From Sphingomonas sp. HF-S4 (GTDB lineage Bacteria > Pseudomonadota > Alphaproteobacteria > Sphingomonadales > Sphingomonadaceae), in contig NZ_JAWJEJ010000001.1 of NCBI RefSeq assembly GCF_032911445.1, positions 2,914,001 to 2,978,000 on the forward strand: a stretch of DNA of 64,000 nt, given 5' to 3'. The notes beneath the pieces were generated by a model. The model was not told the DNA's origin, made no database searches, and worked only from the letters and a program-made list of their open reading frames with translations. Positions 3,857 to 9,364 of this stretch are shown piece by piece. The position numbers and the translations under genes are program-made. Each line of letters begins with the position of its first letter. Within the stretch, counting starts at the first letter, position 1.

Positions 3857-6259
3857 TCATTGCCGGGCGCGAAACGTGAGGCCAACGGTCCGGGGATCGC
3901 TCGGTGTGGCGAGGATCAGGCCCGAATTGCCTGCCTGTATCGTCACGTTCTGGATGTAGTCGCGATCGAGCAGGTTTCGCGCGAATACCGCTAGCTCCCA
4001 GCCGCGGTGGCTGCGATAACCCAGGCTGCCATTGACAAGCGCGAACGCGCCGATCGCGGTATAGCGCGACCCCGTGGGATCGCCGAACTGCCTGCCACGA
4101 TAATTGACGTCCGCATGCGCGAATAGACTGCCGTCGAGCGCCGTCGCGGAATACCGATAGTCACCGCTGATGGTGCTCGACCATTTGGGCAGACCGGGCA
4201 AGGCGACGCCGCTCAAGTTGCAAGCGGTGGCCGTGTTGCCGATCCGCTCGATTGGACAGGGACCCGCCGGATAACGGTTGTACTTGCCATCGGCATAGGC
4301 GACCGATCCGCGCACCGAAAGGCCGCGCGTCACCGCGATCTCCGCGTCGGCCTCGAACCCCCTTACGGTGACGAGCGGAATGTTCGCGAGGTAGGTGCGC
4401 AGTGCCGCCGCTGCGCGCGTATCGCTGACGTTAGACTGGAAGTCGGTCACGCGCGTGTAGAATGCGTCGATATTGAACATCACGCGATTGTCGAACAGCC
4501 ATGTCTTTAGGCCGACTTCATAGGCGGTGTTCTTCTCCGGCCGCACCACGGCGGTGCCGGTCGCGGGCAGGTTCGCGTCGTTGAGCGGCAGGCCCGACAT
4601 GTTGATGCCGCCCGACTTCTCACCCCGCGCGAAACTGGCATAGGCGAGGACGCCGTCAGTCGCTTGCCAAGCGATATTGGCGCGGCCGGTGAGTGCGCCG
4701 TCGTTGACCTTGGCCGTGTAATATTGCCCTCGCAGAATACCGAGCCGTGCATTGATCAGCGCCGTGATCGATGTCGCCATGCCCCCAAACACGAACGTGT
4801 CGTACATGCCCGTCTTGTGCTCGTAGGTGTAGCGCAGACCACCAGTGAGCGTCACGCGGTCGATCGGGCGCCAATTGAGCTCGCCGAACGCAGCATAGCT
4901 ATTGGACTGGAAATCGGTCCGGCCGTCCGTGCCATAGCCGTCAAGCAGGTTGCTCGGCACGGCCACTGCCGGCGTCCCGGTAGTGGTGCCGATCAGATAT
5001 CGTGCCGCCGCCGGGCCGTAGATCGAGATCGGACGACCAATCACGCGCTGACGAAAGAAGTAGAGCCCGCCGACGTAGCTGAACGGCCCCGATCCGTTGG
5101 AAGCGAGACGTAATTCCTGGCTGAACTGATCCTGCCGCGAGGGGATGTGCTGTTGCAGCTGGATCGGGATACCAGTGTAGTCGCGGTCGTTCGCTGCATC
5201 CCAATTCCAGAATCGCCACGCGCTGATCGACGTGAGCGTAGTCTTGCCGAGCGCCCAGTCCGCGATGGCCGCAACGCCGCCCTCGTTGGTGTCGACGCCC
5301 AGCCGTGCATCGATGTCCGTCACTCGGTCATAGGGGTTCATACTGGGCGGGACGTAGCCGAACTGCGCAGCGAGCCCGGCCGATCCGCCATATTGGCGCG
5401 ACGCGGTGCGTGGCAGGTCGCGCGCCGCCACGCGGTAGTGGACCTGCGTGCAGCAATCGCTCTCGAAGTTGGTGAAGTCGGCGCTGAGCTTCACCTGAAA
5501 CGCTTCGGACGGCTTGATCAGCAATTGTCCGCGCACCGCCTGATTGCCGATCTGATTGTGATCTGCGCCGGTGCGGACGTTGTCGATCACGCCGTCGCGC
5601 CGCGTGACGATTGCCGACAGCCGTCCTGCGATCGTATCGCCAGACAGGGCGCCGGAAGCCGCGATCTTCGCCTGGACGAAGTTGAAGCTGCCGACCGAGA
5701 TCTCCTGGCTCGCTTCGCTCTTGAAGGTCGGCGCGCGGGTCGTGATGTTGATCGCGCCCGCCGTACTGTTCTTGCCGAACAGCGTGCCCTGGGGCCCGCG
5801 CAGCACCTCGGCCTGGGCGATGTCGCTGAAATCGAACGCGGCAGTTGCCGGGCGCGCGTGGTAAACTTGGTCGACATAGAAGCCGACGCCTGGTTCAAGC
5901 CCGTCATTCGCCTGGCTGACCGCAACGACGCTGCTGCCAAGACCCCGGATAGTGAAAGCGGTGTTGCGCGGATTGGCCGAACTGTAGTTGAGCGCCGGCA
6001 CCAGTTGCGCCAGCTGCTGCGTGTTGACGGTGTAGGATCGGTCGAGCGTGTCGCCTCCGACCACAGAAAGCGAACCGGGGATGCGCTGCGCGTCCTCCGC
6101 GCGCCGGCGTGCTATGACGGTGATTTCGGGCAGGATGGCGTCGTCGGGCCCTATCTCGGTCTCCGCTGCGCTGTTCGGGCCACTCTGTGCTTGAGCCAAA
6201 GCCGGGTGCCCTATCAGCAGCGCACAAAGTGCCATCGACCGCGCTGGATTCATTGTCAT
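3857..6259 (-). CDS. TonB-dependent outer-membrane receptor, candidate molybdenum-regulated
   Basis: An 800-residue TonB-dependent receptor. It has a signal peptide (through ALAQAQS), a TonB-box-like stretch ILPEITVIARRRAEDAQ, a plug with RGLGSS, GVGFYVDQVY and VLRGPQGTLFGKNSTAGAINI, and a beta-barrel whose C-terminus is DPRTVGLTFRARQ. Cysteine pairs occur in extracellular-loop-like segments (SDCCTQ and GPCPIER...TACNL). Plug wording is that of the large sphingomonad/caulobacter TBDR expansion, where substrate cannot be read from sequence. ATG 6259 (with ATG 6253 as alternative) is favoured over the longer frame at 6286 because a GGGGGG run precedes it. Upstream in the same direction are a ModE-type HTH gene and mop, and a ModE-like palindrome (6291-6314) ends 32 bases before the start. 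I infer a role in taking up molybdate/tungstate, a metal chelate or a precursor used by the molybdoenzyme; this is unproven. Confidence 0.92.
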   Translation of the reverse strand: MTMNPARSMALCALLIGHPALAQAQSGPNSAAETEIGPDDAILPEITVIARRRAEDAQRIPGSLSVVGGDTLDRSYTVNTQQLAQLVPALNYSSANPRNTAFTIRGLGSSVVAVSQANDGLEPGVGFYVDQVYHARPATAAFDFSDIAQAEVLRGPQGTLFGKNSTAGAINITTRAPTFKSEASQEISVGSFNFVQAKIAASGALSGDTIAGRLSAIVTRRDGVIDNVRTGADHNQIGNQAVRGQLLIKPSEAFQVKLSADFTNFESDCCTQVHYRVAARDLPRTASRQYGGSAGLAAQFGYVPPSMNPYDRVTDIDARLGVDTNEGGVAAIADWALGKTTLTSISAWRFWNWDAANDRDYTGIPIQLQQHIPSRQDQFSQELRLASNGSGPFSYVGGLYFFRQRVIGRPISIYGPAAARYLIGTTTGTPAVAVPSNLLDGYGTDGRTDFQSNSYAAFGELNWRPIDRVTLTGGLRYTYEHKTGMYDTFVFGGMATSITALINARLGILRGQYYTAKVNDGALTGRANIAWQATDGVLAYASFARGEKSGGINMSGLPLNDANLPATGTAVVRPEKNTAYEVGLKTWLFDNRVMFNIDAFYTRVTDFQSNVSDTRAAAALRTYLANIPLVTVRGFEADAEIAVTRGLSVRGSVAYADGKYNRYPAGPCPIERIGNTATACNLSGVALPGLPKWSSTISGDYRYSATALDGSLFAHADVNYRGRQFGDPTGSRYTAIGAFALVNGSLGYRSHRGWELAVFARNLLDRDYIQNVTIQAGNSGLILATPSDPRTVGLTFRARQ

Positions 6260-6290
6260 ACGCCCCCCATCCGTCGCTTCGACCACGACT

Positions 6291-6314
6291 CGATGTATTC
6301 AGCCGTATATAGCG
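6291..6314. promoter_or_regulatory. ModE-like operator (Mo-box candidate) before the TonB receptor
   Basis: The + strand reads CGATGTATT-CAGCCG-TATATAGCG; the minus strand begins CGCTATATA, N6, then AATACATCG. The arms match at 6 of 9 positions as an inverted repeat. The layout recalls the E. coli ModE operator as I remember it (CGTTATATT-N6-TACATAACG): same CGnTATAT half and same 6-base spacer. It sits between the ModE-type gene and the receptor, where a promoter for the receptor would be. Confidence 0.55.
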
Positions 6315-6346
6315 CCTCGGTCAGTGCCAAGCCGTCTGTGGGGGCC

Positions 6347-6727
6347 TCAGCCGGTCCTTTTTGTCCGGTCTGGTGCGACGCGAATTCGGCCAAGCAGGCG
6401 CTGGTAGGCAGGGGCATCAACCAGCGCCGCCGCCTGCGCCTCAAGCTCGCGGAAAGCAGCAAGCGCCAAGCGGCCGTCTTCCGTCAAATGAGCACCGCGT
6501 CCGTCACCGCCACCGGCCCGCGTTTCGACGAGCCGATTGACGAAGCAGCAGTTCATTTCATCGACCAGCAGCCATGTGCGGCGGTAACTCATTCCCAATG
6601 CGCGACCCGCCGCGGAGATTGAACCTTCGCGATCGATCGCCTCCAGAACGTCGGCCTTGCCCGGACCGATCGCATAGCTGTCGCCGCAGACGATCTGCAG
6701 CTTCAGCTTGAGCGCATGAACCCGCAT
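6347..6727 (-). CDS. ModE-type winged-helix regulator, stand-alone HTH domain
   Basis: A 126-residue protein that matches only the N-terminal DNA-binding half of ModE. The stretch KLKLQIVCGDSYAIGPGKAD leads into EAIDREGSISAAGRALGMSY and RRTWLLVDEMN, the characteristic ModE wing-helix text, followed by GAHLTEDGRLALAAF. Full ModE (about 260 residues) carries two C-terminal Mop/TOBE molybdate-binding domains; these are absent here, while a separate Mop protein is encoded one base upstream. The pair therefore looks like a split ModE. In family knowledge such HTH-only proteins repress or activate molybdate uptake and molybdoenzyme genes. The C-terminal 30 residues (VDAPAYQRLLGRIRVAPD) are basic and without a recognised domain. 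Expected target: the palindrome at 6291-6314 just downstream. Confidence 0.85.
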   Translation of the reverse strand: MRVHALKLKLQIVCGDSYAIGPGKADVLEAIDREGSISAAGRALGMSYRRTWLLVDEMNCCFVNRLVETRAGGGDGRGAHLTEDGRLALAAFRELEAQAAALVDAPAYQRLLGRIRVAPDRTKRTG

Positions 6728-6728
6728 C

Positions 6729-6935
6729 TCACTTGCCGATCAGTACGTCGCTGGCCTTGATGAGAACGGTGACCGTGTCACCTTCCGCTAGAGAGAGATC
6801 GGCGATCGCTTCCTCGGTAATGCTGGCGGTGACGGTCATCCCGCCGCCGATATCGACCTTTACGGTACCGTTGACCGCGCCGGGCATGATCGTGGTGACG
6901 ATGCTTGGCAGCTGATTGCGTGCGCTGATCTTCAT
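6729..6935 (-). CDS. mop: Mop/TOBE-domain molybdenum-pterin-binding protein (molbindin)
   Basis: A 68-residue single TOBE/Mop domain. It starts MKISARNQLPSIVTTI, contains PGAVNGTVKVDIGGGMTVTA and SITEEAIADLSLAEGD, and ends VTVLIKASDVLIGK, which is the classic molbindin layout (KISARNQ..., GAVN, ITxxS, VIKAS). Molbindins bind molybdate or tungstate as oligomers and act in storage, buffering or sensing. ATG 6935 is chosen because the family always begins MKISARN; the frame continues upstream to 7016 but that extension has no homology-like text. It ends one base before the ModE-type gene begins, so the two should be co-translated and could interact as the sensor and DNA-binding halves of ModE. 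Confidence 0.92.
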   Translation of the reverse strand: MKISARNQLPSIVTTIMPGAVNGTVKVDIGGGMTVTASITEEAIADLSLAEGDTVTVLIKASDVLIGK

Positions 6936-6964
6936 ACTTTTCCTTCCATCCGCAAAACGAGGCT

Positions 6965-6985
6965 GCGTCGGCTCAAAGCCAACGC
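6965..6985. promoter_or_regulatory. Hairpin in the mop 5' leader
   Basis: GCGTCGGCT and AGCCAACGC form a 9-bp stem with one mismatch (a G-U pair in RNA) around a 3-base loop, 30 bases upstream of the mop ATG. It could be part of a structured leader. I cannot tell whether it belongs to a known riboswitch class. Confidence 0.3.
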
Positions 6986-7220
6986 TCCTCCCAGACCATT
7001 GCCTTGGTCCCACCACCCTCCCGATCCGCGGCGGTCGGAAGAAACGATGACCCTATACGGTTCGTTCGAATCAAGGCAGTCGAGAATGCGGCCTCCGCCA
7101 CCGCGCATCCGGGGGGCGCAAACCGCGCCTTAACCCCGCCGCCCGAAGGCCGGCCTCAAGACCGCGGCACTAGTCTCGGTGGAATACGCATCCCTGAATC
7201 GTGAATACCTCTTCGATTGC

Positions 7221-8759
7221 TCAATCCACGGCGCCGAACCAGCGGTGCATCGCTTCGAGAAAGCGTTCGCCATCAGCGGGCTTATCGCTGGCGCAAGCGA
7301 CGAAGCCATCGGGGCGGATCAGTATGGCGCTCAGCCCGAGATGGTCTTTTACCTCAGCGCAGATGTAATCGATCCGACTTCGCCAGGGCTTCGTCAGCGA
7401 CCGATGAGGCGCGCTTGAGGTGAAATCTAGCATCAGGCCACGACCGTGGCGCAAGAGCTCGCCGATCCTGGCGCCACCGACCAGCTCGAAATCCGGCACG
7501 CTGCGACCAACAAGGGGATGATCATCGCCGAGATCGTAGCGCAGCGACACGCCCCAAGCCTGCTCGGCGAAGTATGTCGCGCCGTCGCGCGTGGCCACGA
7601 GATCGCGAACAATGCTCTCGAGCGCGCGGGTGCTTGGCGTGGGACGCATCAGCGCGACCTGCGCTCGCGACCAGTCCAGAACGCGGGCTGCTTGAGGATG
7701 ACGTTCGCCATGATAGCTGTCGATGAGACCGGCACGCGCCGATCCACGGATCGTCGCCGCCAGCTTCCAACCCAGGTTCATCGCGTCGGCGAGGCCCAGG
7801 TTCAAGCCTTGGCCGCCCAACGGCGAATGCACATGAGCGGCGTCCCCTGCGAGCAGCACCGGACCGCGCCGGTAGGAGGTAGCCTGGCGCGCGCGGTCCG
7901 TCCAAGTGGCGGCGAACTTCAGATTGGTGAGCGTGACGTCCGTGCCCGAGATTCGCCGGAGCACCGATTGGACATGCTCCCGCGTGACCGGGTGCATACG
8001 GTGGAAAACGCCGCCATCGAAATCAACCATTGCGATCGTGCCCGGCCTGGCGAAGGTGTACATGCCGGTCGGGGTATAGGTGCGACCGACACTCAGCTTG
8101 TCTGCATCTTCAAGTTCTGCGGCGACCGAGTAGCCCGTGAACTCCGGATCGGTGCCAGCGAAATCGAAGCCAGCGAGCTTCCGAACCCTACTCCGACCGC
8201 CATCGCAGCCGACCAGCCAGGAGGTACGATACACGTTATCCTGGGTTTGAACGGTCACGCCGTCACATTCCGCCTCTATAGCGACGACGCCCTCTCCCCG
8301 CTTGATGATCGTGCCCCTTGCAATCGCCCGAGCGGTGAGCGAACCCTCGAGTGACTGCATGTCCACCGCAAGGTTGAAGCCTGCCGGGCTGGGCAACCGA
8401 TACGGCCAGCGCGTCGAATCAACATCCTCCGCGAAGAAGGGAATGCCGGCGAAATGTCCGGCGGGACGACGTTGCTGCTGCAGCCAATGCGCCGACGCCG
8501 GCATCGTCCCGGCTTCGTCTTTCGCTTGCTGAAGCGCGACGATTTGATCGAGCAATCCGCGACGATGAAAGGCCTCGAGAGTGGGCGTCGATAACCCGCG
8601 CATCCCGAACGGCAAGATCTTGAGCGGAGATCGCGGATCGGCCGCCTGCTCCAAAAGGAGCACCGAAACCCCAGCCAACCGCAGCTCGCAGGCGAGGAAC
8701 AGGCCGACTGGGCCAGCTCCGGCAATAATGACGTCGTACGTGGATGATTGTGTAGACAT
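7221..8759 (-). CDS. FAD-dependent monooxygenase (aromatic hydroxylase family)
   Basis: A 512-residue group A flavoprotein monooxygenase. The Rossmann dinucleotide motif VIIAGAGPVGLFLACEL is at residues 10-26, followed by SVLLLEQA; the DG-type motif is VGCDGGRSRVRK near residue 185, and the second FAD motif GDAAHVHSPLGGQGLNLG lies near residue 285 with LGWKLAA after it. A C-terminal thioredoxin-like extension ends in CASDKPADGERFLEAMHRWF, as in phenol/rifampicin/PgaE-type hydroxylases. Enzymes of this family hydroxylate aromatic rings or oxidise polyketides using NAD(P)H and oxygen; the substrate is unknown. ATG 8759 is supported by GGGAGC just upstream; the frame to 8879 lacks homology. It lies alone on the minus strand, 285 bases from mop and downstream of the tRNA-Tyr/integrase-remnant region. 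Confidence 0.88.
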   Translation of the reverse strand: MSTQSSTYDVIIAGAGPVGLFLACELRLAGVSVLLLEQAADPRSPLKILPFGMRGLSTPTLEAFHRRGLLDQIVALQQAKDEAGTMPASAHWLQQQRRPAGHFAGIPFFAEDVDSTRWPYRLPSPAGFNLAVDMQSLEGSLTARAIARGTIIKRGEGVVAIEAECDGVTVQTQDNVYRTSWLVGCDGGRSRVRKLAGFDFAGTDPEFTGYSVAAELEDADKLSVGRTYTPTGMYTFARPGTIAMVDFDGGVFHRMHPVTREHVQSVLRRISGTDVTLTNLKFAATWTDRARQATSYRRGPVLLAGDAAHVHSPLGGQGLNLGLADAMNLGWKLAATIRGSARAGLIDSYHGERHPQAARVLDWSRAQVALMRPTPSTRALESIVRDLVATRDGATYFAEQAWGVSLRYDLGDDHPLVGRSVPDFELVGGARIGELLRHGRGLMLDFTSSAPHRSLTKPWRSRIDYICAEVKDHLGLSAILIRPDGFVACASDKPADGERFLEAMHRWFGAVD

Positions 8760-9277: not shown

Positions 9278-9364
9278 TGGTGGACAGGGCTGGATTCGAA
9301 CCAGCGTACGGGAAACCCGGGCAGATTTACAGTCTGCTGCCTTTAACCACTCGGCCACCTGTCC
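9278..9364 (-). tRNA. tRNA-Tyr (GTA)
   Basis: Minus strand starts GGACAGGTGGCCGAGTGG and ends in CCTGTCC-A-CCA, so CCA is encoded (9278-9280). The acceptor stem GGACAGG/CCTGTCC pairs perfectly, the anticodon stem-loop reads GCAGACTGTAAATCTGC with anticodon GTA at 9328-9330, a long class II variable arm (CCGGGTTTCCCG) follows, and the T-arm is CTGGTTCGAATCCAG. Length without CCA is 84 bases, right for a bacterial tRNA-Tyr. Confidence 0.97.

Follow-up and report, generated by a model that had tools for sequence, protein, structure and literature searches.

A ModE-type box and regulator gene ahead of a TonB-dependent receptor gene of Sphingomonas sp. HF-S4, and a predicted outer-membrane arm of molybdenum uptake

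The mop–HTH–receptor locus and its box

Does a ModE-type regulator control an outer-membrane receptor gene in sphingomonads, and what would such a receptor bring into the cell? The question is raised by a locus in a 64,000-nucleotide stretch of Sphingomonas sp. HF-S4 DNA (contig NZ_JAWJEJ010000001.1, positions 2,914,001–2,978,000), the whole of which is called the window here. On its minus strand, the locus encodes a free-standing Mop/TOBE protein of the molbindin type (mop, 6729–6935, 68 amino acids), a ModE-type helix-turn-helix (HTH) protein without Mop domains (6347–6727, 126 amino acids) and a TonB-dependent receptor named TBDR1 (3857–6259). A ModE box, which reads CGCTATATACGGCTGAATACATCG in minus-strand letters, is found at 6291–6314 on the minus strand, 31 bases ahead of the likely receptor ATG at 6259. 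Regulation of TBDR1 by ModE and its linkage to molybdenum genes are well supported by comparison of this locus with those of relatives.

The mop and HTH genes are separated by 1 base, and 87 bases lie between the HTH stop and ATG 6259; the three co-directional genes were thus confirmed at the places given in an earlier note on this DNA. The listed open reading frame (ORF) of the receptor starts from GTG 6286, and ATG 6259 was judged likelier by eye from a G-rich stretch just ahead of it. The Mop protein matched TIGR00638 above the cut-off (E 1.4e-19) and consists of a single Mop/TOBE domain in the size class of about 70 amino acids, as molbindins do; among solved structures it matched best 1h9j, which binds molybdenum and has two domains of this kind. 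The HTH protein matched TIGR00637 ModE_repress under the curated cut-off (E 9.1e-19) and also the ModE structures PDB 2ijl and 1b9m, and it is a stand-alone ModE-type HTH protein, not a full-length ModE, in which one chain combines the HTH with two Mop domains. HTH and Mop are therefore separate proteins in the window, as had been noticed earlier. TBDR1 carries both the plug (PF07715) and the beta-barrel (PF00593) of a TonB-dependent receptor, each above its cut-off.

The box was scored with a 24-base matrix trained on ten orthologous receptor promoters, with the window left out of the training. The site at 6291–6314 scored 24.4 bits and was the top site of the 64 kb on either strand, the highest score in 20 first-order Markov shuffles being 17.7 bits. 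When the window was cut into 290-base tiles (n = 220), sites of at least 15 bits were present in 1 tile and of at least 10 bits in 3. Thus, the ModE-like palindrome reported ahead of the receptor was ranked first by an independently trained matrix. The palindrome is imperfect, with the layout CG-N-TATATA-N6-AATACA-N-CG in which the second TATATA has two changes. The available part of PMC545781 gives the E. coli-type ModE consensus as ATCGNTATATA-N6-TATATANCGAT, and the window box is similar to the E. coli ModE regulon in the TATATA-N6 spacing and the CG flanks; the differences are a TonB-dependent receptor as the target and a regulator that has no Mop domains. The search of the organism's own genome (4.44 Mb, 3 contigs) with the box pattern gave one mismatch-free match, which is 6291–6314, and 13 more rows with 2 mismatches; all 14 together are no more than the 16 obtained with the reversed pattern as control. 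Of these further rows, the two with the highest scores lie inside an SPFH-type ORF (L132, 21.9 bits) and ahead of a MarR/GNAT-like ORF (L138, 19.9 bits); neither was clearly linked to molybdenum, both ORFs being named by eye.

Box and regulator type across receptor orthologs

The window-type receptor was found above 950 bits in 13 of 249 genomes of the family, the next match being at 690 bits, and it is rare beyond the family (2 of 385 genomes of the class at E 1e-200, the window's own among them). The box lies ahead of 12 of the 13 orthologs; ten of these are the training sites, with leave-one-out scores of 21.9–32.1 bits, and the untrained ones are the window and G077 (27.7 bits). The single ortholog without a box (G236, locus L109) belongs to a genome that gave no HTH match and has its Mop elsewhere. 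When all 249 genomes were searched for the HTH protein, 87 gave a match and 83 a strong one (E below 1e-20), whereas 12 of the 13 receptor genomes had a strong match, a comparison that is uncorrected for kinship. The HTH gene adjoins the receptor in six of the 13, co-directionally in four and convergently in two, and Mop is directly upstream in G113.

A larger sample of 80 named receptor loci, from 389 relatives listed, contains a box of at least 15 bits in 68 loci, with 5 of the 68 sites identical to training sites. Three of the 12 loci under this threshold hold weaker sites (9.9, 13.9 and 14.1 bits), and the other nine coincide exactly with the loci where a full-length ModE, with HTH and two Mop domains, is encoded just downstream of the receptor. 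All nine have the E. coli-type box CGTTAT-N13-ATAACG at the receptor start, one of them (L196) with one base changed, and this pattern was found nowhere in the remaining 71 loci (928,520 bases). Because the loci with full-length ModE are exactly those with the other box, regulator type and box type switch together ahead of one receptor, and this is the strongest single argument of the analysis.

Gene order around the receptor varies in the 80 loci. The HTH gene is beside the receptor in 38, being upstream in the same direction within 2 kb in 29, convergent in eight and divergent in one (L243); modABC, the genes of the molybdate transporter, are divergent from the receptor in three (L195, L228 and L238), and Mop is the only linked gene in two. 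Among the 29 co-directional loci, 15 also have Mop upstream, so the window's order of mop, HTH and receptor recurs in 15 of the 80, and the rest are arranged otherwise. The genome-wide search for HTH in 49 genomes, for which 50 of the 80 loci were sent, gave a strong match in 39, only a weak match of the full-length type in nine and none in one; the last genome (G299) is that of locus L228, where modABC is beside the receptor.

The assignment of the box to ModE was examined at 60 HTH loci taken from 59 HTH genomes other than the window's own. These loci have modABC nearby in 30 cases, the window-type receptor in five, a second receptor family in eight and none of these in 17. The receptor-trained matrix detected sites of at least 15 bits upstream of modA in 23 of the 30 modABC loci and of at least 10 bits in 29, against a background of 23 in 1,746 tiles from these loci at 15 bits or more with the true sites counted in. 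Because the matrix finds sites before modA, the receptor element was identified as a ModE box; it resembles the one upstream of the molybdate transporter in relatives. As for 20 TBDR1 paralogs (581–661 bits), none has a 15-bit site in the 290 bases around its start, the best being 10.6 bits. The box is therefore conserved at the promoter across orthologs as expected of a ModE regulon member, in 12 of 13 genomes of the family sample, in 68 of 80 named loci and, as the other box type, in nine of nine.

Predicted uptake route and competing explanations

In our view, the unit quite probably serves as the outer-membrane part of molybdenum uptake under ModE control, the transport role being a prediction. 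With molybdenum in good supply, the box at 6291–6314, near the receptor start, would be occupied by the ModE HTH protein and the promoter blocked; under molybdenum shortage, the receptor would be derepressed and made. Powered by TonB, it would then bring molybdate or a molybdenum complex into the periplasm, and ModA of a distant modABC would take the periplasmic molybdate for import by ModABC. The best modB match of this genome is about 650 kb from the window, and the adjoining ModC of 232 amino acids has no TOBE match, since the genome's sole TOBE match is the window Mop. A porin-like protein of 400 amino acids, named by eye, is also encoded near modABC (L038:4987–6189). Repression rather than activation is suggested by the position of the box, which across the 68 boxed loci ends a median of 33.5 bases (range 0–106) before the first in-frame start codon; this short distance is the reason for proposing a repressor geometry. 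We infer the molybdenum dependence, the ligand and the TonB dependence of TBDR1. Thus, from the TonB-dependent molybdate uptake module proposed in the earlier note, the regulation and linkage of the receptor through the ModE box hold, and molybdate transport stays a prediction.

Several observations weigh against this interpretation. The organism's own modABC has no box, its best site upstream of modA being 2.1 bits, and therefore the receptor and the inner-membrane transporter do not share the box in this organism; their co-regulation through it was rejected. The scan of 6200–7230 with a sigma-70 pattern gave no promoter near the box, which leaves the repressor geometry unproven. In 28 of the 80 named loci, the fetched flanks lack HTH, Mop, modABC and full-length ModE alike. 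The nine full-ModE loci may represent two or three lineages, since seven of their promoters are nearly the same. The Mop match is missing in most HTH genomes, which leaves the molybdenum-sensing step unexplained. Finally, siderophore and heme receptors make up most of the nearest solved relatives of TBDR1, in sequence as well as in fold.

The last of these points favours a different explanation, in which the receptor takes up iron, or several metals, as a siderophore-type chelate and is tuned by ModE since such chelators also bind molybdate. We regard it as unlikely: resemblance to siderophore receptors is common to proteins of this fold, and the linked genes found are ModE, Mop and modABC, in flanks that were not searched for siderophore genes. 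The predicted structure of TBDR1 forms a barrel with a mean predicted local distance difference test (pLDDT) score of 68.2 and a plug apex below 50; because the apex is poorly predicted, no ligand site was read from the model. Foldseek gave 4epa as the best match. Since the fold and sequence searches put TBDR1 among ordinary TonB receptors, they cannot name the ligand. A hydrophobic start and a TonB-box-like EITVIARRR were seen in TBDR1 by eye, along with VTARR-like stretches in its orthologs. The plug residues S109, S110, S115, Q116 and H134 (numbered from ATG 6259, the first part of the protein being compared) separate TBDR1 from its paralogs and are only a lead.

The window also encodes a molybdenum hydroxylase (1–1569, cut by the window edge) that matched PaoC/XdhA models below their cut-offs. 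It lies 2.3 kb beyond the receptor, as the earlier note had it, and could point to a receptor for some molybdoenzyme's organic substrate, activated by molybdenum-bound ModE so that the substrate enters only when the enzyme can be active. This explanation appears very improbable to us. A hydroxylase homologue was found in the fetched flanks of just four of the 80 receptor loci, a count that covers this molybdoenzyme family and no other; the box ends where a repressor would be expected, and in three loci modABC and the receptor gene are divergent. With a homologue at so few loci, the hydroxylase was rejected as a member of the molybdenum-linked unit, whereas the receptor is retained, since the box, HTH, full-length ModE, Mop and modABC recur beside its orthologs.

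The general view is that molybdate diffuses passively through porins on its way to ModA, and we know of no TonB receptor described for a metal oxyanion. Stand-alone ModE HTH proteins, molbindins and TonB receptors are each already known. The apparent control of an outer-membrane TonB receptor gene by ModE in sphingomonads suggests an undescribed route for active uptake of molybdate or a molybdenum complex. The literature search, which covered few subscription papers and no regulon database and in which "ModE" is indistinguishable from "mode", gave, among the entries listed, no report of a ModE-controlled or molybdate TonB receptor; with that coverage, an earlier prediction of the coupling is possible. 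As far as the available parts of the sources go, three further systems come near. In Azotobacter vinelandii, genes of TonB siderophore receptors that depend on VnfA1 are expressed only without molybdenum and vanadium (PMC9542535); they are similar to the window in tying TonB-dependent receptor genes to supply of these metals, but are activated by VnfA1 and lie in operons with ABC components, not under ModE. Pseudomonas aeruginosa acquires molybdate through ModA-IcmP and type VI secretion (PMC8602904), which is an outer-membrane step for molybdate as proposed here, but its ModA is secreted. MnoT and OprC are TonB receptors for metal ions (PMC8602904) and take up non-iron metals, but these are cations and not an oxyanion, and the regulators are others. 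If the proposal is true, an active and regulated outer-membrane step would be added to molybdate uptake, the known cargo of TonB receptors would be extended and two receptor families would gain a function.

Molybdenum sensing, further receptor families and neighbouring genes

The separation of HTH and Mop had raised the possibility of a two-part sensor, in which the HTH protein would bind DNA and Mop would sense molybdate in trans, and this is compatible with the uptake role proposed above. The order of mop, HTH and receptor in 15 named loci favours it, as do the Mop protein adjoining a short HTH protein of 81 amino acids in L114 (G153) and the nine loci in which the same receptor is accompanied by a protein that fuses HTH with two Mop domains. 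In the window's genome, the adjacent Mop is the only candidate partner of the HTH protein with a TOBE domain. On the other hand, no Mop is nearby in any of the 60 HTH loci from other genomes, a Mop match is missing from 72 of the 83 HTH genomes, and Mop may merely store molybdate. A two-part sensor is therefore not a general rule; the window fits the idea, which we nevertheless consider rather doubtful. Stand-alone ModE DNA-binding proteins are known in two Desulfovibrio species and D. psychrophila, and their molybdenum sensing is called unclear (PMC545781). Both these and PDB 2ijl (135 amino acids) are like the window protein in having the HTH without Mop; the Desulfovibrio sites follow a different consensus, CGGTCACG-N14-CGTGACCG, and the available text of the same source names no receptor as a target, unlike the window. 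The long-standing question of how a ModE without Mop domains senses molybdenum becomes testable, because the same receptor occurs in strains whose ModE is split and in others whose ModE is full-length.

The second receptor family, TBDR2 (about 690 amino acids), is downstream of a box in several loci with stand-alone HTH. It was found at E 1e-80 in 26 of the 249 genomes, and each of these 26 belongs to the 83 strong-HTH genomes (hypergeometric 1.9e-14 uncorrected for kinship; 1.3e-7 by genus). The 26 distinct loci (29 rows minus three repeats, with the L114 fragment in and the G171 copy out) have a box of at least 15 bits near the start in 25 and one of 10.1 bits in the other. A broader statement, which we put a little short of an even chance, is that sphingomonads import molybdate, tungstate or a molybdenum complex through at least two TonB receptor families under ModE, that ModE controls the outer-membrane step and not modABC in the window's organism, and that the one-piece sensor found beside this receptor in other strains is there replaced by HTH plus a separate Mop.

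A few TBDR2 copies are split or have a stop. In L114, the TBDR2 fragment is about 3 kb from the Mop/HTH pair, and two boxes lie next to each other at the fragment's start. A protein of about 165–180 amino acids, which matched no Pfam family and, judged by eye, has a secretion-type start, is encoded divergently from TBDR2 with a ModE box between them (L053:5480–5989, L088:7227–7717, L077:4573–5109 and L114:11107–11628), and it is a possible periplasmic partner. A third type of TonB receptor (L067:7399–9516), which has no TBDR2 match, adjoins HTH and has a 29.7-bit box at its start (site 7345).

For the alpha/beta hydrolase, the DJ-1/PfpI protein and the monooxygenase of the window, no best-label homologue above 80 bits was present in the 80 loci. 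In the search for a molybdenum cofactor riboswitch, Rfam at the gathering threshold matched only a tRNA; a tRNA gene is located at 9281–9364 of the window on the minus strand.

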